From Indolivaga capnocytophagoides DSM 22835 (GTDB lineage Bacteria > Bacteroidota > Bacteroidia > Bacteroidales > Dysgonomonadaceae), in assembly GCF_000426485.1 (NCBI RefSeq), contig NZ_AUFL01000010.1, positions 62,001-126,000 on the forward strand: a stretch of 64,000 bases of DNA, in the 5' to 3' direction. Made by a program: the position numbers and the translations under genes. Below the pieces are notes generated by a model, which was given only the letters and a program-made list of their open reading frames with translations, made no database searches and was not told the origin of the DNA. This document shows positions 24,980-62,848 of the stretch, piece after piece (within the stretch, counting starts at the first letter, position 1; each line of letters begins with the position of its first letter).

Positions 24980-24980
24980 T

Positions 24981-25069
24981 TGAAAGAAAGCATTTAATAA
25001 TGTATCTTAAAGCGATAACCAGATCTTGCTGTCATGCTTGTAAAATCAGCAGAAAGGTCTGAGACCTTA
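24981..25069 (+). repeat. Dispersed 95-bp element, copy downstream of SusD
   Basis: It begins one base after the SusD stop and contains AAGCATTTAATAATG, GATAACCAGATCTTGCTGTCATG (hairpin region, 25014-25036) and the terminal palindrome AGGTCTGAGACCT at 25055-25067 followed by TAA. It lies before the operon terminator, so it would be part of the SusCD transcript. Confidence 0.75.
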
Positions 25070-25086
25070 ATCAGGTATATTGATTT

Positions 25087-25127
25087 AAAAAATACCTCTG
25101 GAGATAAAACTCTTAGAGGTATTTTTT
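25087..25127 (+). terminator. Terminator of the SusCD operon
   Basis: A 13-bp perfect stem (25087-25099 with 25115-25127, AAAAAATACCTCT/AGAGGTATTTTTT) with a 15-base loop and a T-run. Confidence 0.88.
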
Positions 25128-25156
25128 ATCTTTGATATATACATCTATCTTTATAG

Positions 25157-25251
25157 GATAAGTAACAGCAAGTGTTTAATGAGGTGTTTTAAGACGATAA
25201 CCAGCTCATGCTGTTATGTTTGCTAAGTTAATAAATCGGTCTGAGACCTTA
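25157..25251 (+). repeat. Dispersed 95-bp element, copy in the leader of the hybrid regulator
   Basis: One of the best copies: GTAACAGCAAGTGTTTAATG, then GATAACCAGC-TCAT-GCTGTTATG forming a hairpin (25195-25217), TTTGCTAAGTTAATAAAT, and the palindrome CGGTCTGAGACCT at 25237-25249. It ends two bases before the ATG at 25254. It is the second tandem copy in this gap, beyond the SusCD terminator. Confidence 0.8.
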
Positions 25252-25253
25252 AT

Positions 25254-28200
25254 ATGTCTTCTGAAATGAAAAATAAAATACTCCGTTATCTCATTACATG
25301 CAGCCTGCTTACATTTTTATTGACAAATGTAGCAGCGCAAAAAGTAACGATGAATTCTATACCCCAGTTAGATCAGTATTCGTCTTATTCGGTGCTGAGG
25401 GTATATCAGGATCGGGCAGGATATATATGGCTTGGGACGATGGATGGCATATGCCGGTATGATGGCTACAGAATTCTTGTATTCAGAACCGATTTTAACC
25501 GCTCTCATCTATTATCGAATAATCAGATATCAAGTATTACCGAAGATGACAAATATATCTGGATAGGAACCGAAGAAGGAATAAATCTTTTAGATAAGCA
25601 AACCTATATTGTAACGCCTTTTGCAGATAAAGAAATACAATCACAGCCAATAAAATCGATATTAGTGGCTTCCGATAAATCTATATGGATCGGTACAGAC
25701 AGGTATCTATATCATTATACCAAAGACCGGACTCTTATAAAGCGGTTCGATGATTTTCCGAATCTCTCCATAAACCAGATATATCAGGACTCATACGAAA
25801 ATATCTGGGTACTGGGGTGGGGACCGGGCTTGTTTAAGTACGATAAAGAAAATTCAACTCTGATCAAGTATCCTAAAATAGGCTCAACCAACAGTCCATT
25901 CCGTATGTTTCAGGACTCCAACAAACATTATTGGATATGTACATGGGGCGATGGATTGTTTAGTTTCAGACCCAATAAAAATGAAGATGAGATGTATGTC
26001 TCGCAGAAAGTAAATAACACAGAAGATAATCAACCTCAGAAAACATTTTTCAGTATAACCCAGGATCATCAGCAGGGCTATATCTGGGTGATGTCTTTTT
26101 CGGGGGTGCATGCATTTAAATACACGGATGTATCCGATCCGGTACTTGAAGAGGTTAATGTATCTCCTCTTTTCAGGGAATCGAATAATATATTCAGCGA
26201 ATTGGTTACAGACCGAAAAGGCAATATCTGGATTGGTACTTATAGCGAAGGAACTATTACCATAAATTTCGACAAGCCTTCAATCAAAAATTATTCACTC
26301 GACAATGTTAAGCAGCGATTTGGTATCGCATCCAATATAAAAGTTCTTTTTCAGGATAAAACAGGGCTGTTCTGGCTGTTTCAGAATAGGGTAGGCTTAG
26401 GAACTTTCAATCCCGAATCCAATCAATTTAATTATTATACAGAATATTCGGATTTGAGAGATCAGTCAGATCTTCGGTTGATTAATTGTATTTCAGCCCC
26501 TCCTTCTACAGACGAAGTTTGGGTGGGAGCCGAGAAAGCCCCTTTTATATACCGGCTCAAAAAGAACGGTAATAATATATCATTAAGTGGTAAAATAGAT
26601 TTAACGAAATATACAAAAAGTCCCGGACTGCCTTTGATATTCTTTAATGATGCCAAAAATAATACATGGCTGGGTACATCTACGGGTGTCTTCATGAAGA
26701 AATACAATGAAGAAGAACTTCATCTGATCAGCGATACATTGGGAAATGTGACGGGTATTACCGAAGACAATAATGGAACTATATGGATAAGTACCAGCAA
26801 ATCGGGGTTATACAATATCCCGATTAAACATAACACTTCTATTGATAATCTGAAATTATTCAATTTCAGAAAAGGATGGAACGGCTTATCCAGTGATAAT
26901 ATACAATCGGTCTGTGCCGATCAGTCAGGAAGAATCTGGATCGGGTCTAAAAACGGAACTATTGAAGTTTATAATACCATAACTGATAAAATAGACGATT
27001 ACACACGGAGTTGTGGTATGACAGGAGACCCTATTCTTAATATTATTGTAGATAGGATGTCCCATGTTTGGATTCTGACGAGTCGCTATGTGACGGAGTT
27101 TAATCCTGAAAATAAAGCCTACCGGAATTATAAAAGTACAGACGGGTTGTCAGTCAACTATTTTCACAAAAATTCGGTGTTTGTCAACAACGACGGGGTT
27201 ATATATTTTGGCGGAAATAAAGGTTTTGCGGCATTTAGCCCATCCGAAAATTTATCGGCTCAGCCCGGTTCTGAGAAAGTACTTGTGACAGATATTAAAA
27301 TTCAGAATCAATCTATTTTTTATCAGAATGCAAATAATAAGTTTGATCTGGATAAACAAACCTTGACTTTAGATCCGAATGATAAAAATATAGAAATAGA
27401 TTTCTCGTCACTTAACTATACTTATCCTTCAAAAATCAGATATGCCTACAAATTGGAAGGGATTGATGAGGACTGGATTTATACAGATAGTAATAGGCAA
27501 TTTGCCACATATAACCAGTTGAGTAAAGGTAAATATATCTTGATGATTAAATCTACAGATGAGAATGGCTTGTGGAGTGATCAGGTTACCGAACTTATCA
27601 TATATAAGCTGCCGGCTTTTTATGAAACATGGTGGGCATATACCTTTTATGCAGTGATTGTGATTGTGTTTATGTATTTGGCTTTGCGGATTGCAACAAA
27701 CAGAATCAGGCTGAGGAATAAGCTGAAAATCACACAGATCGAGAAAGAAAAGACAGAAGAGTTGACGCAGACCAAACTTCGTTATTTTACAAATATATCG
27801 CATGATTTCCTTACGCCCCTCACAATTATTTCATGTCTGATTGACGATCTGGAAACAACGTCAAAAACAAAAGTTCCTCAGTATGAGACAATGCGTTCGA
27901 ATGTAAGTCGTTTGAAGCGTTTGCTTCAACAGGTTCTTGATTTTAGAAAAATGGAAAGTGGTAATATGAAATTAAAAGTGACTAATGGTAACATTATCAT
28001 TTTTATTAAAGACATCTGTTATACACATTTTGCCCCCTTAATTAAAAAGAACAATATCAACTTTTCGTTTACCTCCGAAGTGTCGGATATCAATGCTTAT
28101 TTCGATCCTGATAAAATAGATAAGATTGTATTTAATCTCTTATCAAATGCATTTAAATATACCCCTGTTGATGGTGCCATCTCTGTTGATATATCGTTAT

Positions 28201-29318
28201 CAACCCGAAACCGACACAATTATCTGACGTTGAATGTCTCGGATACAGGTATAGGTATTGCTGAAAATCATCTCAAAGATGTATTTACAAGGTTTTATAC
28301 AGACAGCCAAAGAGCTAGAGGTGAGACTAACGGCATAGGTTTATCCTTAACAAAAGATTTGGTGGAACTGCATCATGGAACTATTGCTGTGAGTAGCTCG
28401 GTAGATATAGGTACAGTATTTACAGTGGTTATTCCTGTTGATAAAGAAAGTTATACCGAAACAGATATTGTAAATACTCCCGATATTATATTTAGTGAAG
28501 AGAGCTCTTTCCGTCACAATGAAGAGCCCCAGTTTTCAGAAGGACAACAAACTGAAGGGGTGGATCGGGTAACAATACTTCTGGTTGAAGACAATGAAGA
28601 GCTCTTAGTACTGATACGGAATATTTTATCGAAACAATATAATGTAATTACCGCAGCCAATGGTAAAGAAGCTCTGGTAAAGCTGCGAAATAATAATATC
28701 GATATTATTATCAGCGATGTGATGATGCCGGAAATGGATGGATTTGAATTGTGCCGAGAAGTGAAATCAAATATTGAGACAAGCCATATATCCATCTTAT
28801 TATTGACAGCAAAAAACAGTGCCGAAGACCGCATCGAATGTTATAATGCCGGAGCAGACGGATACATGTCGAAACCGTTCGAAATAAAAGTGCTTGAAGC
28901 CCGTATCAACAATCTGGTGAGTAATAAAGAAAGTAAGCAGCAAGAATTCAAATCGAATGTCGAAATCAATATATCTTCTCTCGAATACCCTTCGGCAGAT
29001 GAACAGTTTCTGAATAGTGCGGTAAAACTAATTGAAGAATACTTATCCGAAACAGAATTCGATATAAATACTTTTGCGGAACATCTGCATATGTCGAAAT
29101 CATCTTTGTATCGGAAAATCAAGTCAATGACAGGATTGTCTCCCATAGAGTTTATCCGCAATATTCGCCTGAAACATGCCTGCAATATGTTGAAAGATAA
29201 ATCGATTTCGATAGCCGAAATTGCATATTCAGTCGGCTTTTCCGATCCTAAATATTTCACATCCTGCTTTAAAACTGAATTTGGAATGACTCCAAGTGAG
29301 TATCAAAAGCAAATGTAA
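25254..29318 (+). CDS. Hybrid two-component system regulator (HTCS)
   Basis: A 1354-residue one-protein sensor and regulator. It has a signal peptide (about 1-29), a periplasmic double beta-propeller of Reg_prop repeats (about 45-700, with repeated GYIWLGT and NIWIGT strings), a Y_Y_Y domain (about 710-785) and one membrane segment (about 792-812). The kinase has its His in SHDFLTPLT near 850, N-box NLLSNAFKY near 960 and G2 box GIGLSL near 1026. The receiver has its Asp in ISDVMMPEMDG near 1155, and an AraC-type DNA-binding domain lies at about 1260-1354. It binds an oligosaccharide in the periplasm and controls the adjacent SusCD and enzyme genes. A second ATG (25266) is equally possible. 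Confidence 0.96.
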   Translation: MSSEMKNKILRYLITCSLLTFLLTNVAAQKVTMNSIPQLDQYSSYSVLRVYQDRAGYIWLGTMDGICRYDGYRILVFRTDFNRSHLLSNNQISSITEDDKYIWIGTEEGINLLDKQTYIVTPFADKEIQSQPIKSILVASDKSIWIGTDRYLYHYTKDRTLIKRFDDFPNLSINQIYQDSYENIWVLGWGPGLFKYDKENSTLIKYPKIGSTNSPFRMFQDSNKHYWICTWGDGLFSFRPNKNEDEMYVSQKVNNTEDNQPQKTFFSITQDHQQGYIWVMSFSGVHAFKYTDVSDPVLEEVNVSPLFRESNNIFSELVTDRKGNIWIGTYSEGTITINFDKPSIKNYSLDNVKQRFGIASNIKVLFQDKTGLFWLFQNRVGLGTFNPESNQFNYYTEYSDLRDQSDLRLINCISAPPSTDEVWVGAEKAPFIYRLKKNGNNISLSGKIDLTKYTKSPGLPLIFFNDAKNNTWLGTSTGVFMKKYNEEELHLISDTLGNVTGITEDNNGTIWISTSKSGLYNIPIKHNTSIDNLKLFNFRKGWNGLSSDNIQSVCADQSGRIWIGSKNGTIEVYNTITDKIDDYTRSCGMTGDPILNIIVDRMSHVWILTSRYVTEFNPENKAYRNYKSTDGLSVNYFHKNSVFVNNDGVIYFGGNKGFAAFSPSENLSAQPGSEKVLVTDIKIQNQSIFYQNANNKFDLDKQTLTLDPNDKNIEIDFSSLNYTYPSKIRYAYKLEGIDEDWIYTDSNRQFATYNQLSKGKYILMIKSTDENGLWSDQVTELIIYKLPAFYETWWAYTFYAVIVIVFMYLALRIATNRIRLRNKLKITQIEKEKTEELTQTKLRYFTNISHDFLTPLTIISCLIDDLETTSKTKVPQYETMRSNVSRLKRLLQQVLDFRKMESGNMKLKVTNGNIIIFIKDICYTHFAPLIKKNNINFSFTSEVSDINAYFDPDKIDKIVFNLLSNAFKYTPVDGAISVDISLSTRNRHNYLTLNVSDTGIGIAENHLKDVFTRFYTDSQRARGETNGIGLSLTKDLVELHHGTIAVSSSVDIGTVFTVVIPVDKESYTETDIVNTPDIIFSEESSFRHNEEPQFSEGQQTEGVDRVTILLVEDNEELLVLIRNILSKQYNVITAANGKEALVKLRNNNIDIIISDVMMPEMDGFELCREVKSNIETSHISILLLTAKNSAEDRIECYNAGADGYMSKPFEIKVLEARINNLVSNKESKQQEFKSNVEINISSLEYPSADEQFLNSAVKLIEEYLSETEFDINTFAEHLHMSKSSLYRKIKSMTGLSPIEFIRNIRLKHACNMLKDKSISIAEIAYSVGFSDPKYFTSCFKTEFGMTPSEYQKQM

Positions 29319-29370
29319 GCATCTGAAGTATAGATCTTTTTTAAATAAAACCGACTGTCCAGTTTTGTTT

Positions 29371-31674: not shown

Positions 31675-31687
31675 GGGTCTGAAACCC
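31675..31687. repeat. Dispersed palindrome in the antiporter leader
   Basis: GGGTCTGAAACCC is a variant of the dispersed palindrome, with compensating G/C changes at both ends that keep the symmetry. It stands 21 bases upstream of the antiporter ATG. A weaker copy, AGGTCGCAGCCT, lies at 31779-31790 in the same gap. Confidence 0.5.
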
Positions 31688-31848
31688 TAAAATTAGAGAT
31701 ATAAATAGTTTCTGAGTCGGTTTAGCAATAAAAGCTGCATAAAATGTAATGAAACCTTGGTATTTTGTAATGAAATTAAGGTCGCAGCCTTATTAACAAC
31801 CAGAGTCTGTTATGACTTGAAAATGTATCATTAAATACTTTCGTTTAC

Positions 31849-32574
31849 TTATTTACCTGAGTTTTCTACCTTATAGATAAAATCATCCCGATATACTTCG
31901 GATAGTGAAAACCGGATTGTATTATCGTTATGAATAATGTCGGATATTATCTCATCATAGGAGAAATATTGTATCGTGCGTAAGGCTATTATCTCCCTTT
32001 TATTGATACGGCAAAAACGCTTGGAGGGAAGAAGACTTATCAGCTTATCGAATGAGATATTTTTCAGGGTCAGATTTTTTCCGTCTTTCAGGTACACAAT
32101 TTTGTCTCTGCTGTCTAAAGCTGCTATAGTTATGTAATCTATCTGGTCGAAATAGAGAAGGACTTTTCCTTTTTCACTGTTCAGTTGGGTGAATGCTTTT
32201 GTTGTTCCCGGCTTTTCCAGATATTTGATTGCTTTGTCTATGGCTTGCTTAAGCCTGTCTCTCTGTATCGGCTTACGAACGTAGTCGATAGCATTCAGGT
32301 CGAATGCTTCTGCTGCATATTCTTTATATGCTGTTACAAATATGATTGCTTTGTCCTTTAATATATTAGCGATCTGTAATCCATTCATTTCTCCCATTTC
32401 GATATCAAGAATACAAGCGTCGAATTGCAGCTGTCCTATTTCATTCAGAAACGCTTTCGGATCATCAAAAGCTTTGACAACCTCTACTTCCGGAAACTGC
32501 TGGCAAAGCATTTTCAGATAAGCTAGTCCTGGTAATTCATCCTCAAGGATGAGGCATCGAAGTTTTGAATCCAT
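31849..32574 (-). CDS. LytTR-family response regulator
   Basis: A 241-residue regulator. The receiver domain (about 4-118) has acidic pocket residues at 11-13, phospho-acceptor Asp57 in ILDIEMGEMNG and a conserved Lys in VRKPIQ. The C-terminal LytTR DNA-binding domain (about 145-238) includes KRFCRINKREII. It is phosphorylated by the LytS-type kinase encoded just upstream, whose gene overlaps it by 32 bases, implying translational coupling. Targets are unknown; nothing nearby is an obvious client. Confidence 0.92.
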   Translation of the reverse strand: MDSKLRCLILEDELPGLAYLKMLCQQFPEVEVVKAFDDPKAFLNEIGQLQFDACILDIEMGEMNGLQIANILKDKAIIFVTAYKEYAAEAFDLNAIDYVRKPIQRDRLKQAIDKAIKYLEKPGTTKAFTQLNSEKGKVLLYFDQIDYITIAALDSRDKIVYLKDGKNLTLKNISFDKLISLLPSKRFCRINKREIIALRTIQYFSYDEIISDIIHNDNTIRFSLSEVYRDDFIYKVENSGK

Positions 32575-33369: not shown

Positions 33370-33413
33370 AATGATTTGTGCTTGCAACGTTAAAAATAGG
33401 GTATGAGACCTTA
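33370..33413 (+). repeat. Dispersed element, diverged copy at the DUF4421 stop
   Basis: TGCTTGCAACGTTAAAAATA (33379-33398) is followed by the palindrome GGGTATGAGACCT (33399-33411) and TA. Its end supplies the TAA stop (33413-33411) of the reconstructed minus-strand DUF4421 frame. The left half of the element is too diverged to place with confidence. Confidence 0.5.
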
Positions 33414-35857: not shown

Positions 35858-35882
35858 ACTGAGTAATTATTTGTTTGTTTGT

Positions 35883-35979
35883 TAAGGTCTCAGACCTATT
35901 TATTAACTTTGTAAGTATAAATGCAACAGCGTAGTTAACGCTTTGATATATAACATAAATGCTTTCTGTTACTTATTAT
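35883..35979 (-). repeat. Dispersed 95-bp element in the ahcY leader
   Basis: A full copy on the minus strand, sense for ahcY. It reads GTAACAGAAAGCATTTATG, GCGTTAACTACGCTGTTGC (hairpin region), ACTTACAAAGTTAATAAAT, then the palindrome AGGTCTGAGACCT at 35897-35885 and TTAAC. It ends 25 bases before the ATG and begins about 10 bases after the -7 box, so it makes up nearly the whole 5' leader. Confidence 0.75.
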
Positions 35980-36337: not shown

Positions 36338-37156
36338 TCATCTCACTATATTTACAGGATGTTTATTTCCTTTATAGCTTTTAAGAATAACACGGGTCGA
36401 ACCGACTTTTAGCTTTGTTTCCAGTTTTATGGGCATACGGTTATCATCATCTGTGATGTACACTTTCATGGCTTCTTTTCCATTGTCAAAAGCTTCATCC
36501 GCAACATAAAGAGTCAGCTTCAGACAGTTGTATTTGTTTCCGTCATTGGCTTTTACTGTTTCTTTTCCGTTATAGATAATACGCATATGAACATTCGATT
36601 TTCCGGTTATAAACCGTACTTTAGTTTCGGTGATATCATTCATTTTACCGTAATCGAGGGTACGTGCGTAGAATAAAACACTCATCAGGTCGTATGTACA
36701 GGCATCGTTTTCGATGGTTTCATCGAATTTGAAATTACCATTCTTATGTCTGATTGATCGGGTTTTTACCTTTCCGTTTGCATAAGAGTATCCGAGACGT
36801 TCTTTGGTATAATCGCCGCCTTCGTGGGCATCCTTCGTATAACCGAGAGGTACGATATCTTTTGTCGTGTAGCAGACAAGAGTATCGTTAAGTTCAAACA
36901 TTTTCCGTGCGAATCCTTGTGATTCAGAGATCAATGTCATCTTATATGCATCTTTACCTGCATATTTTACATTTTGGGTAGTCAGGCTTGCGTATCCACC
37001 CTTAATGGTCGCTGCAAATTTGATGTAAAGATCATAAGTGAGATGTTCTCCTGCCTGAAAATATTTATTGTCGATACTGCATTGCGCCGAAACATGGTGT
37101 AAGGGCAGTAAAGACAATAGTAAGATAAATGAGTAAAGAATCTTCTTCATAAGCAT
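36338..37156 (-). CDS. DUF3108 protein, exported
   Basis: A 272-residue protein with a signal peptide (about 1-25). The remainder is a beta-rich DUF3108 domain; family members are periplasmic or outer-membrane-associated proteins of unknown function. Conserved-looking strings include GEHLTYDLYIKFAATIKGGYA near the N-terminus and TYDLMSVLFYARTLDY near the middle. Two start ATGs are possible (37156 and 37150). It follows the Ig-like lipoprotein by 19 bp, and that gap is filled by the dispersed palindrome. The pairing with an Ig-like lipoprotein suggests an envelope role. Confidence 0.82.
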   Translation of the reverse strand: MLMKKILYSFILLLSLLPLHHVSAQCSIDNKYFQAGEHLTYDLYIKFAATIKGGYASLTTQNVKYAGKDAYKMTLISESQGFARKMFELNDTLVCYTTKDIVPLGYTKDAHEGGDYTKERLGYSYANGKVKTRSIRHKNGNFKFDETIENDACTYDLMSVLFYARTLDYGKMNDITETKVRFITGKSNVHMRIIYNGKETVKANDGNKYNCLKLTLYVADEAFDNGKEAMKVYITDDDNRMPIKLETKLKVGSTRVILKSYKGNKHPVNIVR

Positions 37157-37160
37157 CTTA

Positions 37161-37173
37161 AGGTCTCAGACCT
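37161..37173. repeat. Dispersed palindrome between two operon genes
   Basis: AGGTCTCAGACCT sits in the 19-bp gap between the Ig-lipoprotein stop and the DUF3108 ATG. On the coding strand the gap reads TAAATAGGTCTGAGACC then TTAAG, four bases before the ATG. Confidence 0.65.
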
Positions 37174-37175
37174 AT

Positions 37176-39191
37176 TTAATACGTATTATTTATGTTAGTT
37201 GTTCCTGTGTTATTATACCGATTCGTCGAGTTGGTTGTATTGGTCGAATTGGTCTGAGAGTTTTTCCGCCTTTTTTCATTGGCTTCTTTCCGTTCAAGAT
37301 CTTTCTTTTTCTTATCCTGATCTTTGGGCTTGTTTTTGGTGATATCAAGCGGTTTCTGCTTGTCGAGCGGAAGTTGGGTTATATCCCAGTCTTCTTCCAT
37401 CTCCCAATATGCTTTAAGATCTACGCTTTTGTCGTAATAATATACCATTTCGGGTTGCAGGTTTTTCTCATAATCCCCGGTATCCCATTTTCCGTTTCCG
37501 TTTGTATCTATAATGATACGTGCGTAATACAGACCCGGATTTAAGTTTATAATAGAGGTTTTTGGTAATTTTACTTTTTCTTTTCTGACTACTTTGTCTG
37601 ACTTATCGAGTATTTCAATAAAGGCAGGTATACTATCGGGTACGTTATTCAGGTAAAATGTAATTATCCCGTATTGATCTTCCGTTTTTACCTTAAATCC
37701 GGCATCAAATTTATTATTCCATTTACCGTCATAACTATATATGGCAGCAGAGTCTATCGCAAACTTGTATTGACTGCCCTGTTTCCACTTATGCTGCAAA
37801 CTATACTTTCGAGGGTTTAGAGTATCTTTCTTCAATACAAAGTCAATATCTTTATATGTTGAGTCTACCAACTCCTGTAGGCGCAGCTGTTTCTTTTCGA
37901 GATCTGCTATCGGTCTTTCAAATTCGACGTTTATATCCTTATATACATCGAATGCTTGTGCTATATCGGTTTGTATTGATAGAAATTCTATTTTTTCTTC
38001 TTCGTTTTTCTTCTTTCGTTTCTCTCTTTCTTTTTCCTGCTTTTCATGTTCTTTCTCTTCCTGTTTTCTATGCCGGTTTACAAAACTGAGTGTGTCGGTT
38101 ACAGGTTGCAGCCTGTTTAGTGTATCAGTTGCAAAATAAGAAACTTTCAGATTGATGGTATCCATTTCTGCAATCGCAGGCTTGGTAATCCAGAATTTTA
38201 ATGTGTCATTTCCGGCTGTTCTTTCCAATACAGACCATTCATTGATGCCTGCCGGTATATCCAAAGGTTCTATCTTAGGCATTTGAGTAGCCGATCCGAA
38301 GAAAATATTCAGAATATTACTCGATGGCCGGTCTACCTTTTGCAGATACTGACGTTTAAATGTTGAGGTGAATGATCTCAATACAATATTGTCCGGTAAG
38401 AATCGTGTGTAATTGACAGTCTTTATTGTGTCGAATATATGTTTTATGTCGAATATACTGTCCTGACGGCTTGCAGCCTCACTTGATGGGACGATCAGGT
38501 CGCTAAGAAAGGCTATTGCTTCCCCCGGATCGTTGTACATATAATCGCGGTTGATATCATTCAGCGCATATATTTTATATTTACCCGGAGAGATCCCCTT
38601 GATCGTGAATCTGCCCAATTCATTAGTTCGTGAAATACGAAGGAAAGGTTTTTTTGTAAAAGCAGTATCCGATAAGTCGGAATGTATACCTACATAAATA
38701 GCTGATACAGGTTCGAGATTATCGGCTGTTAGAACTTTACCCGAAATAGCGAGGCTATCGACAACATCTCCTGTCGAAAAAGAAACGGCGAAATTTTCGA
38801 GTACATTTTTTTCGTTATTATCGACTATTGCATCCGTAAAATCAATAGTATATGTTGTATTCTCCTGTAGAGTATCTTTCAGGTCAACAAGCACTCTGTT
38901 GTTTATTGCTCTGATATTCGGATAATTCTTTTGGGGAGGAGTTATTATTATTTTCTCTTCCGGCTTTTCGAGCTGGACAAGTTCATCAAATATGATTTCG
39001 ACTTTGCCTTTCTTTACATTTGTTTCATTGAAATTTGGGGTGACTTGTACGACTTTGGGCGGATCTAGGTCATAGTCTCCTCCCGAAGGTGAGCCTATAC
39101 TGGCGCATGCCGTAATAAATGCCGCAATACCGCATGCGGAAAGTATGCGGATAATATATTTATTTGAATCTGAGATGTATCGTCTGAACAT
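37176..39191 (-). CDS. Ig-like domain lipoprotein with charged and Asn/Thr-rich segments
   Basis: A 671-residue lipoprotein. After an N-terminal membrane anchor the lipobox is ITAC (Cys about 29). An SbsA-type Ig-like domain (Big_5, about 40-145) follows with the typical SPSGGDYDLDPPKVVQVTP opening. The middle holds a carboxypeptidase-regulatory-like fold (about 150-235) and long beta-rich stretches. Around residue 375-405 is a run of Lys and Glu that should form a single charged helix. The last 30 residues are almost only Asn, Thr and Ser. Such proteins are widespread and uncharacterised in Bacteroidetes. It leads the pair with DUF3108; a TATTTTTG -7 box lies at 39216-39223. Confidence 0.85.
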   Translation of the reverse strand: MFRRYISDSNKYIIRILSACGIAAFITACASIGSPSGGDYDLDPPKVVQVTPNFNETNVKKGKVEIIFDELVQLEKPEEKIIITPPQKNYPNIRAINNRVLVDLKDTLQENTTYTIDFTDAIVDNNEKNVLENFAVSFSTGDVVDSLAISGKVLTADNLEPVSAIYVGIHSDLSDTAFTKKPFLRISRTNELGRFTIKGISPGKYKIYALNDINRDYMYNDPGEAIAFLSDLIVPSSEAASRQDSIFDIKHIFDTIKTVNYTRFLPDNIVLRSFTSTFKRQYLQKVDRPSSNILNIFFGSATQMPKIEPLDIPAGINEWSVLERTAGNDTLKFWITKPAIAEMDTINLKVSYFATDTLNRLQPVTDTLSFVNRHRKQEEKEHEKQEKEREKRKKKNEEEKIEFLSIQTDIAQAFDVYKDINVEFERPIADLEKKQLRLQELVDSTYKDIDFVLKKDTLNPRKYSLQHKWKQGSQYKFAIDSAAIYSYDGKWNNKFDAGFKVKTEDQYGIITFYLNNVPDSIPAFIEILDKSDKVVRKEKVKLPKTSIINLNPGLYYARIIIDTNGNGKWDTGDYEKNLQPEMVYYYDKSVDLKAYWEMEEDWDITQLPLDKQKPLDITKNKPKDQDKKKKDLERKEANEKRRKNSQTNSTNTTNSTNRYNNTGTTNINNTY

Positions 39192-43281: not shown

Positions 43282-43284
43282 GTT

Positions 43285-43377
43285 GGGTAAATGAAAGTAT
43301 TTAATGATCTATTTTAATGTTATAACGCGCTCCGGCTATTGTACTTGCCAAAGTAATAAATAGGTCTGCAACCTAAA
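43285..43377 (+). repeat. Dispersed 95-bp element between glycosyltransferase paralogues
   Basis: GAAAGTATTTAATG, then TTATAACGCGCTCCGGC (hairpin region), TACTTGCCAAAGTAATAAAT and the palindrome AGGTCTGCAACCT at 43362-43374. It fills most of the 123-bp gap. On the coding (minus) strand it is antisense. Confidence 0.7.
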
Positions 43378-49314: not shown

Positions 49315-52116
49315 TTATAATACGACGTTTACGATTTTCTTTGGTACGATAATTACCTTCTTAGGTGTTTTTCCTTCGAGCCATTTCTGAGAATTGGCAT
49401 GATTTAAAACTGTCGATTCTATTTCGTTATTCGCTGCGTCAGCTGCAAATTCAATCGTGAATCGGGCTTTCCCATTAAAGGAGATGGTATAATTAATAAC
49501 ATCTTCTTTCAGATAATCTTCGTTGTGTTCTGGCCATTGTGCATCACATACAGTAGTTGTGTAGCCCAAAGTGTTCCACAATTGTTCGGCGATATGGGGA
49601 GCAAATGGAGCTATTACTGTAATAAGCTGCTCTAGTATTGCCTTTTTGTTGCATTTCAATGATGTCAATTCATTAACACAGATCATAAAGGCTGATACTG
49701 AGGTGTTGAAAGAGAAATTTTCAATGTCTTGAGTCACTTTCTTTATCAACTTATGCAATGATTTCAGTTCGTCTTTTGTAGGAGTATCATCTGAAATAGA
49801 AACTTCTTCTCCGTTATAGAATAAATTCCAGAAGCGGCGAAGGAATCGGTGTACTCCGTCTATTCCGTTTGTATCCCAAGGTTTGGATTGCTCCAAAGGT
49901 CCAAGGAACATTTCATACAAACGAAGTGTATCTGCTCCATATTTTTCGACAATGTTATCGGGATTAACCACATTGTATAGTGATTTTGACATTTTTTCTA
50001 CACCGTAACCACATATGTATTTATCCTCTTCAAGGATAAATTCTGCATTTGCAAATTCGGGACGCCATGCTTTGAATGCCTCTAAATCAAGGATATCGTT
50101 GCTCACAATATTTACATCTACATGCAACTCTGTTGTCTCGTGCTGATCTTTCAACCCGAAAGAAACGAACTTATTTGTTCCGTTGATACGATATACAAAA
50201 TTGCTTCGTCCTTGTATCATTCCCTGATTAATCAGCTTTTGGAATGGTTCATCCTCACATGAAACATTGATGTCGAATAGGAACTTATTCCAGAAGCGGC
50301 TGTATATCAAGTGACCGGTAGCATGCTCTGTTCCTCCGATGTATAAATCGACATTCCGCCAGTATTCGTCTTTAGCCTTACTCACTAATGCCTCATTATT
50401 ATGAGGATCCATATATCGAAGGTAATAAGCCGATGATCCTGCAAATCCGGGCATTGTATTCAATTCCAAGGGAAATATGGTAGTGTCGTTTATTTCCGAT
50501 TTGTCTACTATTTCTTGTTTTACACTGTCCCAAGCCCATTTTACGGCGTTTCCAAGAGGTGGTTCGCCTGTTTCGGTTGGTAAAAATTTGCTTACCTCCG
50601 GCAATTCCAAAGGAAGTTTATCTATTGGCAGCATATAAGGCATTCCGTCTTTGTAATAGACGGGGAATGGTTCGCCCCAGTATCTTTGACGCGAAAATAT
50701 AGCATCGCGAAGCCGGTAATTGGTTTTCACCTTTCCGATGCCTTTTTCTTCGATGTATTGTTTTGCTTTCGATATAGCTTCTTTTACAGTCAGTCCATTC
50801 AGAAAATCAGAATTAGTAACGATACCCTCTTTTGCATCATAACTCTCTTCCGAGATATCGCATCCTTCTACAAGCGGGATAATCGGCAGATTGAAATGTT
50901 TTGCAAAAGCATAGTCTCTGCTGTCGTGAGCAGGTACAGCCATAATTGCCCCCGTTCCGTATCCGGCAAGTACGTAATCCGCAATCCAGATCGGAATTTC
51001 TTTTCCGTTCAAAGGGTTGATAGCATGTGATCCGGAGAATACTCCCGATACTTTTTTCTCTGCCTGACGTTCTCGTTCCGTTCTCTTTTTGGTTGCTTGC
51101 AGATAAGCATCTACTTCAGCCTGCTGATTTGGTTTAGTCAACAATGACACATAATCGCTTTCGGGAGCAAGTACCATAAAGGTCACCCCAAAAACGGTAT
51201 CGGCACGGGTTGTAAATATTTCGAGTTCAATATCTGAATCTTTTACCTTGAATTTCATTTCGGCACCTTCCGAACGTCCGATCCAGTTTTTCTGGGTTTC
51301 TTTTAAAGAGTCTGTCCAGTCTATTTTATCCAACCCTTCCAACAATCGTTGTGCATAAGCCGAAACACGAAGGCACCATTGACGCATTTTGCGCTGTTCA
51401 ACGGGGTATCCGCCACGTTCCGACAAGCCGTTGATTACCTCATCATTGGCAAGAACAGTTCCTAGTGCAGCACACCAATTTACCATTGTTTCGCCCAGAT
51501 AAGCGATACGGTAATTTAAAAGGATTTCCTGTTTTTCTTTTTCAGTTTTGGATTTCCATTCATCAGCCGTGAATAATAATTCTTCGCTGCAAGCTATGTT
51601 CATACCCTCAGAACCCTGTTGTTCAAAAACGGAAATAAGTTCTGTTATTGGGCGGGCTTGTTGTTCGTCATAGCAATAATATGATTCAAACATTTGTACA
51701 AATGCCCATTGAGTCCATTTGTAATATTCGGGTTCGCAGGTTCTGATTTCACGATCCCAGTCAAAAGAAAAACCTATTTTGTCTAATTGTTCTTTGTATC
51801 TTTTGATATTCTGATTGGTTGTGATTGACGGATGCTGACCTGTTTGTATCGCATATTGCTCAGCGGGTAGTCCGTAGGCGTCATAACCCATAGGATGCAA
51901 TACATTGAAACCTTGCAAACGCTTGTAACGGCTGTAAATATCCGATGCAATGTAGCCAAGAGGGTGTCCAACGTGTAATCCTGCACCCGAAGGGTACGGA
52001 AACATGTCGAGGACATAGTATTTTGGTTTATCTTTGTTCTCTACAACTTTGTAGATTTTCTGATCTGTCCAAAACTCTTGCCAACGTTTTTCGATTTCTT
52101 TGAAATTGTATTCCAT
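49315..52116 (-). CDS. leuS: Leucyl-tRNA synthetase
   Basis: A 933-residue class I synthetase that charges tRNA-Leu. It has the HIGH motif as HVGHPLGY near residue 48-55, a CP1 editing domain (about 240-435), the KMSKS motif as EKMSKS near residue 710, an anticodon-binding domain and a C-terminal domain. It is somewhat longer than E. coli LeuS (860) because of extra sequence around residues 150-200, as seen in other Bacteroidetes. The leader is about 190 bases from a TACCTTTG box and contains an antisense-oriented copy of the dispersed element. Confidence 0.97.
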
Positions 52117-52140: not shown

Positions 52141-52240
52141 TAAGTCAGTAACAGAACGCATTTATAGACATATTTAAGAGAATAACAACTTAATAGCTGT
52201 TGTTCTTGAATCTGCCAGTAAATAGGACTGAGACCTTAAA
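52141..52240 (+). repeat. Dispersed 95-bp element in the leuS leader (antisense)
   Basis: GTAACAGAACGCATTTATAG, then GAATAACAACT-TAAT-AGCTGTTGTTC forming a strong hairpin (52180-52205), TGCCAGTAAATA and the palindrome AGGACTGAGACCT at 52225-52237. It lies between the leuS ATG and its -7 box, so it is transcribed as the complement in the leuS leader. Confidence 0.72.
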
Positions 52241-57211: not shown

Positions 57212-57233
57212 CGCTAAATTTCAGATAATTTTT

Positions 57234-57369: not shown

Positions 57370-57972
57370 ATGTTTTCAGGAATTGTTGAAGATGCAGCTA
57401 TTATAAAAAATATCCGGAAGGAAAATGAAAATATACATCTGACTCTCGGTTGTTCTTTTGTGAAAGAGCTGAAAATAGATCAAAGCATCGCCCATAATGG
57501 GGTGTGTCTTACGGTTGTAGATCTTACCGAAGATTCTTATACTGTGACAGCTGTAAAGGAAACGTTGGAAAGATCGAATCTCGGATTGTTAAATCTCGGA
57601 GATAAGGTAAATGTGGAGCGCAGTATGTTAATGAACGGACGCCTTGACGGGCATATCGTTCAAGGACATGTTGACCAGACCGCCCGTTGCATCGCTATTG
57701 ATGAAGCGGATGGCAGCTGGTATTTTACTTTTGAGTATGATTACGATAAAGAGATGGCAAAAAAAGGATATCTTACAGTAGATAAAGGATCGGTTACGGT
57801 AAATGGTGTAAGCCTTACTGTATGTAATCCTACAGATAATTCTTTTCAGGTAGCTATTATTCCATTTACATACGAGCATACAAACTTTCATCAGTTTAAA
57901 GTAGGCTCGGTTATTAATTTAGAATTCGATATTATCGGAAAATATATCAGTCGTATTGCAGCAATAAAGTAA
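57370..57972 (+). CDS. ribE: Riboflavin synthase alpha chain
   Basis: A 200-residue enzyme that turns two 6,7-dimethyl-8-ribityllumazines into riboflavin and a pyrimidinedione. It begins with the family signature MFSGIVED. It contains two lumazine-binding repeats, each with the NGVCLTV or NGVSLTV motif (near residues 46 and 142), and the GHIVQGHVD string near residue 95. Length matches the family. It stands alone without other rib genes and without an FMN riboswitch, so it is probably constitutive. A terminator follows at 58021-58045. Confidence 0.96.
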   Translation: MFSGIVEDAAIIKNIRKENENIHLTLGCSFVKELKIDQSIAHNGVCLTVVDLTEDSYTVTAVKETLERSNLGLLNLGDKVNVERSMLMNGRLDGHIVQGHVDQTARCIAIDEADGSWYFTFEYDYDKEMAKKGYLTVDKGSVTVNGVSLTVCNPTDNSFQVAIIPFTYEHTNFHQFKVGSVINLEFDIIGKYISRIAAIK

Positions 57973-58020
57973 TACTTAAAGATTGATTTATTTACGGTTT
58001 GCCTAAGTATTTGATAAATG

Positions 58021-58045
58021 AGGCCGGAAGTTTTTCTTCCGGTCT
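58021..58045 (+). terminator. Terminator of ribE
   Basis: A 10-bp stem (58021-58030 with 58036-58045, one G-U pair), 5-base loop, followed by TATTTGCTTTT. It lies 48 bases after the ribE stop. Confidence 0.8.
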
Positions 58046-58198
58046 TATTTGCTTTTATTGGTATGTACTTTTGAATAATAGATAAGATAGGTAGTATAAT
58101 AAGTCGGTGAGACTGTTTGATAAACTTCTGATTTTAAGAATTGACAGATATATAATTTTATGATACGAAATGAAATCTGTTAATTAAATTTGTTTGCT

Positions 58199-60943
58199 AT
58201 GAAAAGAATATTGTTAATTGCGTTCATGCTATTCTCAGTCTTATCTGTTGAGATTTGGAGCAAGAGTGTTACTTCGGTCAAGGATTTGAAAGCGGGAGAT
58301 TCGTTTAGCTTGAAAATTACTGTTCCTGTCGGAAAGTCAGAGCCTTCGTCGGTCTGGAGTTATGATAATGTACAGAAAATAGATGTCGAATTTATTGTTT
58401 TATCTGTAGATAAAGATTCAGTACGCATGGCTGTAAGACCTTTTAACTGGTATATATGCTATCCGAATCTGAATTATCCGGATTTATTAAAGAGAGAAGG
58501 TGTAGGAGTAAATAATTATTTAGACTTCAGTTATTACGGCGATTATTTTGATGGAAAGTCGCGTTTCTTTCTTTTTGAGAATAACTTGGTTACAGCATCG
58601 CTAGCTAATAATACCGGAGAGGTGAGCGTTAATTTTCCGAAACAGACTGACGACCCGAAAAGTGGGAGGTCAGCTAAAATGTGGTATGCACAGATCTTCG
58701 AGATACCAAAGGGGTTAAGTATGGTTCATTTTGATGGAACGATATTAGATTATACTCTGAATTTTGATTTTATAGTAAAATCTGCTCTGCAATCTTATTT
58801 TAATCGATGGACGAAGAATCTTAAAGAAGGACTGTCCATGCCTTGGCTGATTGATTTGAGTCCCGATGTTAAAAAAAATTCTGAAAGTCCTGCATTTATT
58901 CAGTTAAGTTCGGCTTCATTCGATTTAAATCCGAATACTCAGATAAAACTGACTGTTCCTGTAGATATTGAAGAAGATCAGGTTTTTATTTCTAACGGAG
59001 ACATTAAAATAAAGCCGGTTCATAAAGATGAAAATACTTATCAGTTTGATTTATTTTTATCCGAACCTAAGCGGGTTTATTTTGAAAACGTTATACTGGA
59101 TCTTACTCCCGGAGATTCTCTTAATGTAGCTTCCATTAATAGCGAATATAAGATCTCAGGTAAAGGGTCTATAAATAGTATATTTACGAATGCAATAGTG
59201 CCGCTATTATATAAGGGGGAGAAGAGGTCAGGCGACTTTTTTGCACAAGCTGAGTCGGTTTTCAATACAGAGTTCAGCAAATATGAATCTTCGATGAATG
59301 AGTATTGGGTAAAATCAGCCAAGCTTTCATTCGACTATTGGTATGCGGCTCAGAAGATGATAATCTATAATGAGAATGTAATGAGAGATTGGGGACAGAG
59401 GTATCATGACGAGAGCAATATACCTTGGGGTGATAAGCATTTTACGAATCTCTATCCTTTTACCGATTATTTGTACCAGCCCTATAATTACGGGGATCTT
59501 ATTCAGACATTTTTTGACTTTAAAGCACGGCAGGCAAATAATAGTATACTCACCGGTATAAGGTATTTACAAGGGAATATTATGAAATTTTATTTTGCCG
59601 ATGCTATCTTCTGGGGATATCCGAGGTTTTATTTGACAAGCGAAGCCTTGAAAGATCAAATGATTTATTTTCAGTTGAATGAAAGCGAAAGGGAGTATAA
59701 ATATTTTATTGAAAGATGTAGTATTCCTGAGTTTCGGACTCCGGTTGTCGATTTGCATGAGAAATTATTGAAAGTTGAGCCGGGAGCCAATTTGAAAGGC
59801 TTGGATCTGGATGTCGAGAAATACCTTTCGATTGGAAATAAGTCTGATGAATACATAGTTCTCTTTGTAAGCGACAATTTAGGTAACAATCCGGATGATC
59901 GGTTTTTCGAAAAAAGACTAAGCAATTTCGAAGACGAGATTAAAAAAGCCAAATTGGAGAAGAAAGTAAAAGTTTATATTGTTACCGGAGAATCCCAAAA
60001 ATCTCTTTTTGAGAAAAATAATAAGATTCATCAGTTCTTGTATTTTGTGCCCGATAAAGTCATCAGAGATTATCGATATAAGGTAGCGTCTAATCCAGAT
60101 GCTTATATCGTGATGAGGAATGACGGTACTATTGTAGATCGATGGCAAAACAGCAAATATATAGATTCTCCTCACTTTCTGATTCGGTTGATACAGGATG
60201 ATATGGATACCTTAAAAACAAAAGACTCTGCTTTGAGCAGGGTCTTACCCTTTGTTTTGATTATATTAGCGGCTGTTCTTGTTACATTCTTTCTTGTGCG
60301 TTTCTTCGTGAAAAGGCAGGAGAGGGTGAGGAGGCAGTTACTTGAACTCGAACTCAAGGCTATCAGGGCACAGATGAATCCTCATTTTACATTTAATGCT
60401 TTAGGTTCTATTCAAAATCTTATAGCTCAGGATAAAAGGAAGGAAGCAGATGAATATCTCGTTAATTTTGCAAAACTTCTTCGTATTGTGTTGAATTCTT
60501 CAGAGAAAAGGCTGATTCCTTTGTCGGATGAGATAGCTCTCATTAGTTTATATTTGCACTTAGAGCAATTGCGTGTTCCTTTTACTTATTCTATTGTGGT
60601 CGATGAAAATATAGAAACTGAGATAGAGGAAATTCCGGGAATGCTTATTCAGCCTATTGTTGAAAATGCGATAAAACATGGGATTGTTCCTTATGGAGGA
60701 GGAAATGTTATAATTGATTTCAGTCTGAAAGATCAAATTTTATATGCTCAGGTAACTGATACCGGTAGTGGATTTATGCCGGATATAGAGAGTAAAACGA
60801 AAGGTTTCGGTTTGAAATCTACCCGAGAGCGGCTAGCTTTATTGAATAAAGACTTGCACTTGAATATAGGCATACAAATAGAAAATGTAGAGCAGGATGG
60901 AATAACAAAAGGATGCAGGGTTATTCTTAGTATTCCTGTTTGA
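58199..60943 (+). CDS. LytS-type sensor kinase with an apparent thioredoxin-like periplasmic domain
   Basis: A 914-residue kinase. The frame opens with a TTG at 58190, but the ATG at 58199 begins a clean signal peptide (MKRILLIAFMLFSVLSVEIWS), so I chose it. A large periplasmic part (about 25-675) follows. Its end (about 540-655) reads like a TlpA/peroxiredoxin domain: a YIVLFVSD strand, then a YIVMRNDGTIVDRW strand-turn, but without the CxxC pair. One membrane helix lies at about 678-702. The kinase has its His in MNPHFTFNALGS near 727 and its ATPase motif VENAIKHG near 822. It pairs with the LytTR gene whose ATG overlaps its stop by one base (TGATG). The ligand is unknown. Confidence 0.88.
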   Translation: MKRILLIAFMLFSVLSVEIWSKSVTSVKDLKAGDSFSLKITVPVGKSEPSSVWSYDNVQKIDVEFIVLSVDKDSVRMAVRPFNWYICYPNLNYPDLLKREGVGVNNYLDFSYYGDYFDGKSRFFLFENNLVTASLANNTGEVSVNFPKQTDDPKSGRSAKMWYAQIFEIPKGLSMVHFDGTILDYTLNFDFIVKSALQSYFNRWTKNLKEGLSMPWLIDLSPDVKKNSESPAFIQLSSASFDLNPNTQIKLTVPVDIEEDQVFISNGDIKIKPVHKDENTYQFDLFLSEPKRVYFENVILDLTPGDSLNVASINSEYKISGKGSINSIFTNAIVPLLYKGEKRSGDFFAQAESVFNTEFSKYESSMNEYWVKSAKLSFDYWYAAQKMIIYNENVMRDWGQRYHDESNIPWGDKHFTNLYPFTDYLYQPYNYGDLIQTFFDFKARQANNSILTGIRYLQGNIMKFYFADAIFWGYPRFYLTSEALKDQMIYFQLNESEREYKYFIERCSIPEFRTPVVDLHEKLLKVEPGANLKGLDLDVEKYLSIGNKSDEYIVLFVSDNLGNNPDDRFFEKRLSNFEDEIKKAKLEKKVKVYIVTGESQKSLFEKNNKIHQFLYFVPDKVIRDYRYKVASNPDAYIVMRNDGTIVDRWQNSKYIDSPHFLIRLIQDDMDTLKTKDSALSRVLPFVLIILAAVLVTFFLVRFFVKRQERVRRQLLELELKAIRAQMNPHFTFNALGSIQNLIAQDKRKEADEYLVNFAKLLRIVLNSSEKRLIPLSDEIALISLYLHLEQLRVPFTYSIVVDENIETEIEEIPGMLIQPIVENAIKHGIVPYGGGNVIIDFSLKDQILYAQVTDTGSGFMPDIESKTKGFGLKSTRERLALLNKDLHLNIGIQIENVEQDGITKGCRVILSIPV

Positions 60944-61728
60944 TGGATAAAGAATCTGATAATATGGAAGATATAAAATATAAGATAAGAGGTGTAATTG
61001 TTGAAGATGAACAGCACAACAGAGAGAATCTCTATAGTAAACTCAAAGATTATTGTCCTGATTTGGAGGTTGTAGCTCTTTGCTCTTCAGCTTTGGAAGG
61101 GAGACAAAAGATCTTAGAGCTGAAACCCGATTTGGTTTTTCTCGACATTGAAATGCCCGGAGGTGATGGTTTTTCGATGATGGAAAGTTTATCTGACTTG
61201 AATTTTGAAGTCATTTTTGTGACAGCATTTACGAATTATGCGGTTAAGGCTATTAAGTTTTCTGCGTTGGATTATATTGTAAAGCCTATCGATACAATCG
61301 AACTCCTCCGGGCAGTGGATAAAGCCGCAAAATCAATACAGAATAGGATGACTAATCTCCGTATGGTTAATCTGCTTGAAAACCAACACCGTGATTCTCT
61401 TAATAAGGTTATCGCTCTGCCTTTGTCTGATAAGATAGAGTTTGTAGCAGTGGCTGATATCGTTCGTTGTCAAGCTGATGGAAACTATACAAATTTTTAT
61501 CTGAAAAATGGAGATAAGCTATTAATTTCAAAGACGCTGAAAGAGTACGATGAGCTGCTGACTGCATATGATTTTCTGAGGGTACACCAGTCGCATCTTA
61601 TAAATCTGAATGAAGTGAAGAGCTTTGTGAAAACTGATGGCGGATATATTCAAATGAAAGATGGAACTAGTATTGTTATCTCAAGGCAGCGTCGGGAGAT
61701 GGTTTTGAGGATATTAAACCAGAGATGA
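60943..61728 (+). CDS. LytTR-family response regulator
   Basis: A 261-residue regulator with a receiver domain (about 15-130; acidic pair in VEDE, phospho-acceptor Asp near 68 in FLDIEMPGGDG, Lys in YIVKPI) and a C-terminal LytTR DNA-binding domain (about 160-258) with FLRVHQSHLINL. It is translationally coupled to the upstream sensor kinase through a TGATG overlap. A TTG three bases upstream also opens the frame, but the ATG is preferred. Its targets are not evident. It converges on the EamA transporter gene with only a 6-bp gap and no terminator between. Confidence 0.94.
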   Translation: MDKESDNMEDIKYKIRGVIVEDEQHNRENLYSKLKDYCPDLEVVALCSSALEGRQKILELKPDLVFLDIEMPGGDGFSMMESLSDLNFEVIFVTAFTNYAVKAIKFSALDYIVKPIDTIELLRAVDKAAKSIQNRMTNLRMVNLLENQHRDSLNKVIALPLSDKIEFVAVADIVRCQADGNYTNFYLKNGDKLLISKTLKEYDELLTAYDFLRVHQSHLINLNEVKSFVKTDGGYIQMKDGTSIVISRQRREMVLRILNQR

Positions 61729-61734
61729 AAAATA

Positions 61735-62679
61735 CTATCTCCATCTAAAATACTTCTGTAATGTATGTCTGGCATTATTGACCGTTGCCAGTAAAAACTG
61801 AGGGTGTAAAGACTTTCCCGCAATTATAAGAATTACAGCAAATAAAATCATCAGTATACCCACTGCCATCCGCATAGAGAAGAGTTCTCCAAAAGCGGAA
61901 ACTCCTATGACAACAGCTGTCAGTGGCTCTAGTGCTCCCATAATAGCTGTCGGGGTAGAACCAATAGCATGTACAGCCTTAACCATCGTTATTAAGGATA
62001 TTATAGTAGGAACTAAAGCCAGCATTCCAGCCCACATCCACATGGATGGTGTGGTCAGCATCTGTAAATGGTTGGCCTCTGAGCTGAGGGAGTGTATAGC
62101 AATTGTCAGCATACAGAAAAGAAGCACATAAAATGTGAGTTTCACCGATGACATGGTTAATGACGATTTGTTTACAATTATAATATAGACGGCATAGCTA
62201 AGGGAAGATGTCATGACTAACAGTACACCGATAGAACTTAATGTACTGCCTCCCTCATTCTTGTAAAGGAGAGAAATTCCGGCTAGAGCAAAAAGAATCG
62301 ATAAAGCGGTAGTGAGTGATACTTTCTCTTTAAAGACCATAGCCATTATTACTGCAACCATTACAGGGTATACAAATAATATAGTAGAAGCTATTCCTGC
62401 ATCCATATAATGAAAACTAGTGAACAGGCTTAGCGATGATATTCCAAAAAGTATCCCTAAGCTGCTGATAATAAGTAATTCCTTCGGAGTTATCCTGAAA
62501 GACTTTTTTTGAACGAGCATTAGTCCTCCGAGAATGATTGCAGCTAAGGAAAATCTGTAAAACAGAACGGAATTGGCATTTACCCCTTCTTTGTATAAGG
62601 ATAGTGCTCCTAGTGGATTTGTTCCATAGCTTACCGCAGAAATAACGGCATATAGAGTTCCTTTCAGTTTTGAATTCAT
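61735..62679 (-). CDS. EamA/DMT family transporter
   Basis: A 314-residue inner-membrane protein with ten predicted helices in two EamA repeats (about 5-135 and 150-285). It has the typical opening GTLYAVISAVSYGTNPLGAL and the end-of-repeat helix EPLTAVVIGVSAFGE near residue 245. Drug/metabolite transporters of this type move amino acids, nucleosides or other small molecules; the substrate cannot be predicted. Monocistronic. The first repeat keeps the proline-broken helix after YPVMVAVIMA, and nothing looks damaged. Confidence 0.9.
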   Translation of the reverse strand: MNSKLKGTLYAVISAVSYGTNPLGALSLYKEGVNANSVLFYRFSLAAIILGGLMLVQKKSFRITPKELLIISSLGILFGISSLSLFTSFHYMDAGIASTILFVYPVMVAVIMAMVFKEKVSLTTALSILFALAGISLLYKNEGGSTLSSIGVLLVMTSSLSYAVYIIIVNKSSLTMSSVKLTFYVLLFCMLTIAIHSLSSEANHLQMLTTPSMWMWAGMLALVPTIISLITMVKAVHAIGSTPTAIMGALEPLTAVVIGVSAFGELFSMRMAVGILMILFAVILIIAGKSLHPQFLLATVNNARHTLQKYFRWR

Positions 62680-62752
62680 GGAATACTTTTTGAAGTAAAA
62701 TTACAGAAAAGCCCCGAATATCTATTCTCTGAAATAATAAGAAAAACAAATA

Positions 62753-62848
62753 AATAAGCAACAGAAAGTGTTTAATGTAGTATTCTAATATGATAACTTA
62801 CTCTTGCTGTTATGCTTGCTAAGTCAATAAAACGGTCTGAGACCTTAA
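62753..62848 (+). repeat. Dispersed 95-bp element before the GH28 stop
   Basis: A near-full copy: CAACAGAAAGTGTTTAATG, GATAACTTACTCTTGCTG and TTATGCTTGCTAAG, TCAATAAAA, and the palindrome CGGTCTGAGACCT at 62833-62845. It is over 70 percent identical by eye to the copy at 25157-25251, 37 kb away. It ends 11 bases before the end of the GH28 gene. Confidence 0.78.

Follow-up and report, generated by a model that had tools for sequence, protein, structure and literature searches.

The window analysed here is a 64,000-nucleotide (nt) stretch of the genome of Indolivaga capnocytophagoides DSM 22835 (contig NZ_AUFL01000010.1, positions 62,001 to 126,000 of the forward strand), in whose intergenic gaps a 94-nt element recurs, for instance upstream of ahcY and leuS. 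The element closes with the palindrome TAGGTCTGAGACCTTA. A preliminary description had seen in it a non-autonomous mobile element, an RNA leader or a regulator-binding site. From a comparison of five Dysgonomonas genomes (that of the window, G000, 4.38 Mb in 38 contigs, together with G001, G002, G004 and G005) and of other Bacteroidales, we consider it likely that the element is a miniature inverted-repeat transposable element (MITE) belonging to the IS630/Tc1-mariner group. The transposase that spread it was probably of a common kind, and none was found in the host genus. The AhcY protein encoded in the window is 93% identical to that of Dysgonomonas sp. HGC4, in line with the assignment of the own genome to Dysgonomonas.

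Anatomy and copy number of the element

The consensus of 61 copies from the own genome, aligned in the first round of a hidden Markov model search, is 94 nt long, with abrupt ends and random flanks. Its layout is TAAGTAACAGAAAGTATTTAATG...ATAAC...GTTAT...AATAAATAGGTCTGAGACCTTAA, the full consensus string being TAAGTAACAGAAAGTATTTAATGATATATTTTAAAG..ATAAC...CT.TTGCTGTTAT.CTTGCAAAGTCAATAAATAGGTCTGAGACCTTAA, with TAAGTA... at the left extremity and ...AGGTCNNNGACCTTA at the right. The palindrome is flanked by AAAT and TTAA and carries neither the GTAG nor the CGTC tag of repetitive extragenic palindromic (REP) sequences; the tips of the element are TAAGTA and CTTA, and GAGACC does not stand at the tips, as it would in an IS5-type MITE. 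The dinucleotide TA is present at both boundaries in 44 of the 61 copies, whereas TA has a frequency of 0.125 in the flanking sequence. Within the two ends, the inner blocks TATTTAATGA and TATTTATTGA match at 9/10 positions of the consensus by eye. The mean pairwise identity among the 61 copies is 0.72 and that of the closest pair 0.926, and these copies therefore show no sign of recent activity; the long copies are 69% to 94% identical to the consensus. The element is thus short, non-coding, dispersed, present in many copies and bounded by defined ends, as MITEs in general are.

Its abundance is far beyond chance. The window holds 15 matches to the palindrome with up to three mismatches, where shuffled sequence is expected to give 0.31, and the palindromic 17-mer, at the same tolerance, has 345+341 matches in the whole genome as compared with 7+6 for a reversed control, so that the claim of a genuine repeat, which the preliminary description had tied to such an excess, stands. 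A covariance model built from the six long copies, as had been proposed there, matched all 150 of the candidates scored (each E below 3e-7); these were taken from 4282 first-look candidates, so the genome contains at least 150 long copies. An nhmmer search of 464 kb of the own genome gave 44 matches at E<0.01, a density that extrapolates to roughly 400 copies in total.

The first structure computed from the six copies consisted of just the 5-bp palindrome. For a hand-built structure, an alignment of 87 distinct rows had 70 doubly changed cells versus 43 in shuffles (score 0.140 versus 0.118), and the compensatory changes, which are concentrated at two inner-stem pairs, also exceeded those of slid versions. 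Such covariation is only moderate evidence, because related subfamilies can produce an excess of this kind and the structure was chosen from the same sequences. The earlier statement that the hairpin arms vary but keep pairing is accordingly borne out to a moderate degree, mostly at those two pairs. An alternative loop pairing was rejected, its paired cells and pair types lying below its own shuffles although its covariation score was higher, and the idea of a conserved RNA was set aside as well, the covariation of the hand-built structure being moderate and owed in part to the existence of two subfamilies. In a longer subfamily a domain holding GCRGTGAGAGCA is inserted, and most of its members also have ...TGCCRAATCGC... 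ahead of the terminal palindrome (Table 1). Near position 7599 of locus L243 (G002, contig C3), what had looked like a nested copy is, on visual inspection, a 34-nt tandem duplication of the 3' end of the element.

Insertion sites and neighbouring genes

Mobility is indicated by the presence or absence of copies at orthologous sites. G001, G002 and G005 are 81-86% identical to one another over the stretches compared. In the ahcY leader a copy is found in the own genome and in G002, and the site is empty in G001 and G005; the copy is also absent from G004. Clean empty counterparts were obtained at 4 of the 13 distinct candidate sites with alignments, namely the ahcY site and three further G002 sites that are empty in G001. 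In sister species, the copies at leuS and ahcY are missing or reduced to a remnant. Elements of the IS630/Tc1-mariner group insert at TA and duplicate it. When the flanks of the four filled and empty sites were rejoined and scored for such a duplication, two favoured a single kept TA, one was neutral and one was opposed.

Where copies have stayed in place, the palindrome shows no extra conservation, as expected for a decaying insertion. Seven G001/G002 pairs with similar spacing were aligned, and two of them were excluded, the palindrome falling mostly in gaps; in this small sample, the five pairs that keep the palindrome are identical at 55/65 of its letters, at 309/354 of the letters of the element body, and at 304/347 and 269/294 of those of the two flanks.

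Placement relative to genes was assessed in 984 kb from the own genome, G001 and G002 by means of a simple custom gene caller (coding fraction 0.85-0.88). That all copies lie between genes nearly holds: 128 of the 135 palindromes with up to one mismatch are intergenic, and seven fall inside gene calls, six of them with a mismatched core and one perfect, close to the 5' edge of its gene. Palindromes lie within 60 nt of a gene start in 46% of cases, versus 25.5% for random intergenic positions. When 54 full copies were compared with the TA positions that their gap offers once the element is taken out, 30/49 lay no more than 40 nt from a start (20.7 expected, p 0.0007) and 16/40 no more than 6 nt from a stop (5.8 expected, a number that 0/20,000 simulations reached). 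The excess at stop codons fits element ends that supply TAA (or TGA) to the gene before them, an example being 24977-24979 of the window, and the excess near starts may reflect insertions that spared promoters, or else a function. In gaps between tandem genes neither strand is preferred: 19 copies have the same orientation as the genes and 16 the opposite one.

All six long copies of the preliminary description were located by direct reading and alignment (Table 1). Its shorter copies are real as well, and several of their coordinates needed correction: those placed at 5283, 19999 and 33370 have their palindromes at 5320-5335, 20038-20053 and 33398-33413, respectively; the entry at 31675 corresponds to the internally deleted full copy, and the one at 9838, taken for a palindrome alone, is in fact the strongly diverged full-length copy. 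The motif TATATTTG upstream of the ahcY copy is promoter-like.

Table 1. Element copies and other features, with positions in the window unless a locus is named (ORF, open reading frame).
Feature	Position	Strand	Remarks
Full-length copy, 94 nt	24977..25070	+	Opens with TGA, which serves as stop codon of ORF 23288-24979
Full-length copy	25159..25252	+	Ends one base ahead of the ATG of ORF 25254-29318
Full-length copy upstream of ahcY	35882..35975	-	Between the TATATTTG motif and the start codon
Full-length copy	43283..43377	+	Palindrome mutated (AGGTCTGCAACCT)
Full-length copy	52142..52239	+	Antisense, upstream of leuS (49315-52116, -)
Full-length copy	62755..62848	+	Between ORFs 61735-62679 (-) and 62859-63944 (-)
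Internally deleted copy	31775..31851 (about)	-	Both ends retained
Full-length copy, strongly diverged	9835..9930	-	
3' part of element	5295..5337	+	At the stop of ORF 5333-6874 (-)
Degraded 3' end	33398..33413	+	AGGGTATGAGACCTTA
Solo palindrome	16405..16420	+	At the stop of ORF 16419-19523 (-)
Solo palindrome	19538..19553	-	Immediately upstream of ORF 16419-19523 (-)
Palindrome of degraded copy	20038..20053	-	Orientation uncertain, one analysis gave +
Solo palindrome	37159..37174	-	Occupies the 19-nt gap between ORF 37176-39191 and ORF 36338-37156
Cobalamin riboswitch (RF00174, 90.7 bits)	6933-7199	-	Elsewhere in the window
Longer-subfamily member	L066, about 617-790		
Longer-subfamily member	L067, about 13496-13665		
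Longer-subfamily member	L008, about 1350-1520		
Longer-subfamily member	L058, near 1309		

Relatives and transposases in other Bacteroidales

Among 393 genomes sampled from the order, 20 contain the pattern AAATAGGTCNNNGACCTTAA with up to one mismatch, in numbers from 1 to 559+583 and with controls of 0-2. The own genome has 131+137 matches, G001 48+52, G052 559+583, G195 96+95, G119 69+80 and G105 7+11, and the others few. In other families of this order, the related elements have the 3' end AATAAATAGGTCNNNGACCTTAA, and a left TAAGTA or TAAGCA at a fitting distance accompanies it in 44 of 89 copies from eight groups (G260 7/8, G105 5/6, G052 16/38, G195 6/14, G119 4/14, the rest 6/9). The interiors differ among the groups, and the covariance model of the Dysgonomonas form found no match in G052; these are therefore related groups and not the same subfamily. 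Some of them look young: three full-length copies in G105 (the query included) share an identical 106-nt sequence with one in G208.

Further groups in G105 and G208 share the left end and lack the hairpin end, terminating in ATTCCTTA or CTACTTA. These two additional MITE groups (L368-L379 in G105, L380-L386 in G208) begin with TAAGTA..CATACAAAAGTTT, and the ATTCCTTA-ended one has internal ATTGTATCATTGAACC repeats; other mini-elements (GGGCATTTTTCACGAG... at L374:3893 and GTGTGCGTCCATAAAGTCAGG... at L384:3061) seem to have inserted inside the G105 and G208 copies. Searches of viral contigs gave 4 and 22 matches, nearly all of them chance by eye, of which those in L394 and L403 resemble real ends. 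The element-like 3' ends at L394:4956 and in L403, both contigs filed as viral, raise the possibility that the element travels on phages or prophages. A GC-rich tandem repeat at L211:5131 and 5201, in a metagenome-assembled genome titled Prevotellaceae, contains the palindrome AGGTCTGTGACCT and is apparently unrelated.

In the own genome, searches for transposases of PF13358 (IS630), PF01609 (IS4/IS5) and PF01797 (Y1) gave no match; other transposase families were not searched. PF13358 matches were found in 5 of the 14 genomes searched (G010, G052, G105, G195 and G208), and at two loci of these relatives a MITE end lies next to IS630 gene fragments. In G052, a 27-nt stretch of L278 matches, at 27/27 positions, the 5' end of a MITE from the same genome (the copy in L249), and three others at 26/27; it precedes the first IS630 ORF fragment by about 144 nt, in a locus without the palindrome. 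In G105, L283 contains an IS630 fragment whose stop codon is followed at once by an inverted left-end match (21/25 to a G105 copy). Mononucleotide shuffles of L278 and of L283 gave 0/2000 matches as good in each case, for motifs picked after the loci had been viewed. Eight IS630 loci were fetched and five scored; L281, L282 and L284 were viewed unscored. The ORF of the G208 locus L277 has 754 matches among plasmid records, all below 60% identity, and of 15 that were listed, 9 bear the annotation IS630 family transposase; viral contigs yielded no IS630 relatives. Among the genes listed as bounded by two palindromes or ends, by eye all ordinary host genes, no transposase was recognised.

Discussion

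The non-autonomous mobile element is the one of the three earlier proposals that is backed by the data, through orthologous presence and absence, TA boundaries that are sharp, copies without any difference in relatives, and gene fragments of IS630 with the same terminal repeat. As an IS630-type MITE, it would consist of a non-coding body of about 89 bp (AGTA...GACCT) flanked by two TA dinucleotides, with two unlike ends, the left one AGTAACAGAAAGTATTTAATGA and the right one with the near-palindrome AGGTCNNNGACCT as its last 13 bp. Both ends would be bound by a DDE transposase of the IS630 family, supplied in trans, which would then excise the element and insert it at a TA. Copies would have spread via intergenic gaps, where they may be tolerated since either end gives a stop codon and promoters can stay intact, and after insertion they would decay. 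In Dysgonomonas the transposase has apparently been lost and the copies are old; elsewhere in the Bacteroidales, relatives that share this type of ends are young, and IS630 genes there retain a matching terminal repeat. The IS630 copies of G052 and G105 are truncated by contig ends; complete ones would then be predicted to have the tips TA-AGYA...ACAAAAGTTTTT and ...CTTA. We infer both the IS630 group that moved the Dysgonomonas copies and the duplication of the TA.

Several observations weigh against an IS630-type origin. The two ends form only a weak inverted repeat (12/22 positions of the 61-copy consensus by eye). No PF13358 match, and hence no cognate transposase, was found in the five Dysgonomonas genomes, nor was one found in G019, G119, G260 and G293; the G260 assembly, 82% complete, holds copies that are near-identical by eye. 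A strong terminal match exists at only two of the eight fetched IS630 loci, at one end each, and one of these, the L283 fragment, scores 27.3 bits where the Pfam cut-off is 28.6 and has the tip CA instead of TA. At L277, TAAGCACC directly 3' of the stop matches the nearest G105 end at 17/25 positions by eye, a suggestive resemblance that is not significant against shuffles (p 0.27), and the shuffle-scored L279 and L280 have no terminal match to the MITE end. The ahcY site, which lies within a TAA run, favours insertion with no duplication. Finally, up to 60 of 128 palindrome sites (an upper bound from our own scoring) lack a recognisable 5' part; some of these solo sites can be recognised as full copies that have diverged, yet decay may not account for all of them.

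The element could have been moved by another enzyme, such as a transposase of the single-strand class (HUH/Y1, RAYT or PATE-like) that reads the 3' hairpin plus TTAA and makes no target duplication. Such an enzyme would suit the asymmetric ends, one of them a hairpin followed by a near-constant tetranucleotide, as well as some compensatory change in the inner stem and the ahcY empty site, which fits better without a duplication; moreover, G001, G002 and G004 each have one divergent Y1 gene. However, PF01797 has no match in G000, G005 and G119 (the last 77% complete), all of them rich in copies. Eighteen of the 30 fetched Y1 loci were inspected, and the palindrome was seen in only L137 (G052) and L146 (G195), from genomes that carry an element copy every few tens of kb or less. 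The fetched stretches around the Y1 loci of Dysgonomonas (L143-L145) and of G019 (L142 and L156) contain no palindrome, and the related G105 and G208 groups without a hairpin end nevertheless retain the 5' end. Rejected as the principal explanation on account of the missing or unflanked Y1 genes, this route strikes us as rather unlikely. The divergent Y1 genes at L142, L143, L144, L145 and L156 (in G019, G004, G002 and G001) are RAYT-like (MPNHFH / MSNHLH) and possibly belong to a separate REP system.

Two further readings concern function. The AGGTCNNNGACCT end of an orphaned MITE might have been co-opted in Dysgonomonas as a gene-edge signal (a leader, a 3'-end hairpin or a binding site), a suggestion that arises because up to half of the palindrome sites lack the remainder of the element and because proximity to start and stop codons exceeds chance; we regard it as unlikely. 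The other holds that the element is a cis-regulatory RNA or protein-binding site under selection, a leader or a genome-wide regulon, which spread by some process. The concentration of palindromes and of full copies near gene starts speaks for this, as does the compensatory change in the inner stem. Against it, in the small G001/G002 sample, stand a palindrome that is no better conserved than its flanks and two further pairs in which it aligned mostly to gaps, the balanced orientations, the lack of an Rfam match, the copies directly at stop codons, and ahcY and leuS genes of sister species that have no copy or a remnant only. The earlier proposals of an RNA leader and a regulator-binding site thus find little support, although the proximity to gene edges leaves some room for either role, and we hold selection for a regulatory function to be quite improbable. 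An origin of this MITE from the IS5 family, on the model of the Porphyromonas gingivalis elements BrickBuilt and MITE464 with terminal repeats such as GAGACCTTTGCA...TGCAAAGGTCTC, is highly improbable: the palindrome does hold GAGACCT and AGGTCTC (compare Table 2 of PMC4596501), but GAGACC is not at the element tip, other lineages have different centres (GAA, TTA, AAA), and PF01609 is without a match in G000, G001, G004 and G005 and has one in G002.

The element matches no Rfam family, the window's only Rfam match being the cobalamin riboswitch of Table 1, and the region 24900-25300 of the window, which holds two copies, gave nothing near a gathering score. In the titles and abstracts of open-licence PubMed Central papers on repeats of Bacteroidales and Dysgonomonas, no description of it was found, which agrees with the earlier failure to recognise a described family. 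We file it as a new family of MITEs within a known kind, the IS630 type; searches of the host genus gave no such transposase. Porphyromonas gingivalis belongs to the same bacterial order as the host. Its BrickBuilt, MITE464/PgRS, MITE239 and MITE700 elements share the letters GAGACC/GGTCTC in some terminal repeats; they differ by IS5-type ends, around 10-20 copies, the lack of a TAAGTA end, internal tandem repeats in two of them and a greater length (names 239 to 700; BrickBuilt_5 991 nt) (PMC4596501).

The closest analogue is RUP of Streptococcus pneumoniae, a 107-bp repeat for which IS630-Spn1 has been proposed as the mover (PMC3049150). Both are about 100 bp long and AT-rich, with about 100 or more copies, IS630-like ends and predicted folding; RUP belongs to another phylum and has no known sequence relation to the element, which has a short AGGTCNNNGACCT hairpin at one end, no IS630 found in its host genus, and related groups across several families of its order. 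The Correia elements of Neisseria and other prokaryotic MITEs are similarly dispersed in over 120 copies, often just upstream of genes (PMC10969869, PMC3049150); the Correia inverted repeats, at 26 bp, contrast with the weakly matching ends seen here, and no sequence relation is known. REP sequences of the GTAG and CGTC types, as presented in PMC3733652, are also short palindromes in many copies, partly beside coding regions, and the CGTC type likewise has no dedicated transposase. The present element differs in having neither tag, in that its palindrome is the end of a 94-nt unit, and in that no RAYT was found in the genome.

Naming a repeat that is common in the intergenic gaps of Dysgonomonas and several other Bacteroidales prevents its being mistaken for a regulon or a riboswitch. 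Lying just upstream of ahcY and leuS and supplying stop codons to genes, the element may shift expression between species. If the link to IS630 is true, the copies would form a series from young, partnered ones in G052, G105 and G208 to the orphan remnants of Dysgonomonas, and such a series would be useful for studying how MITEs survive beyond the loss of their transposase.

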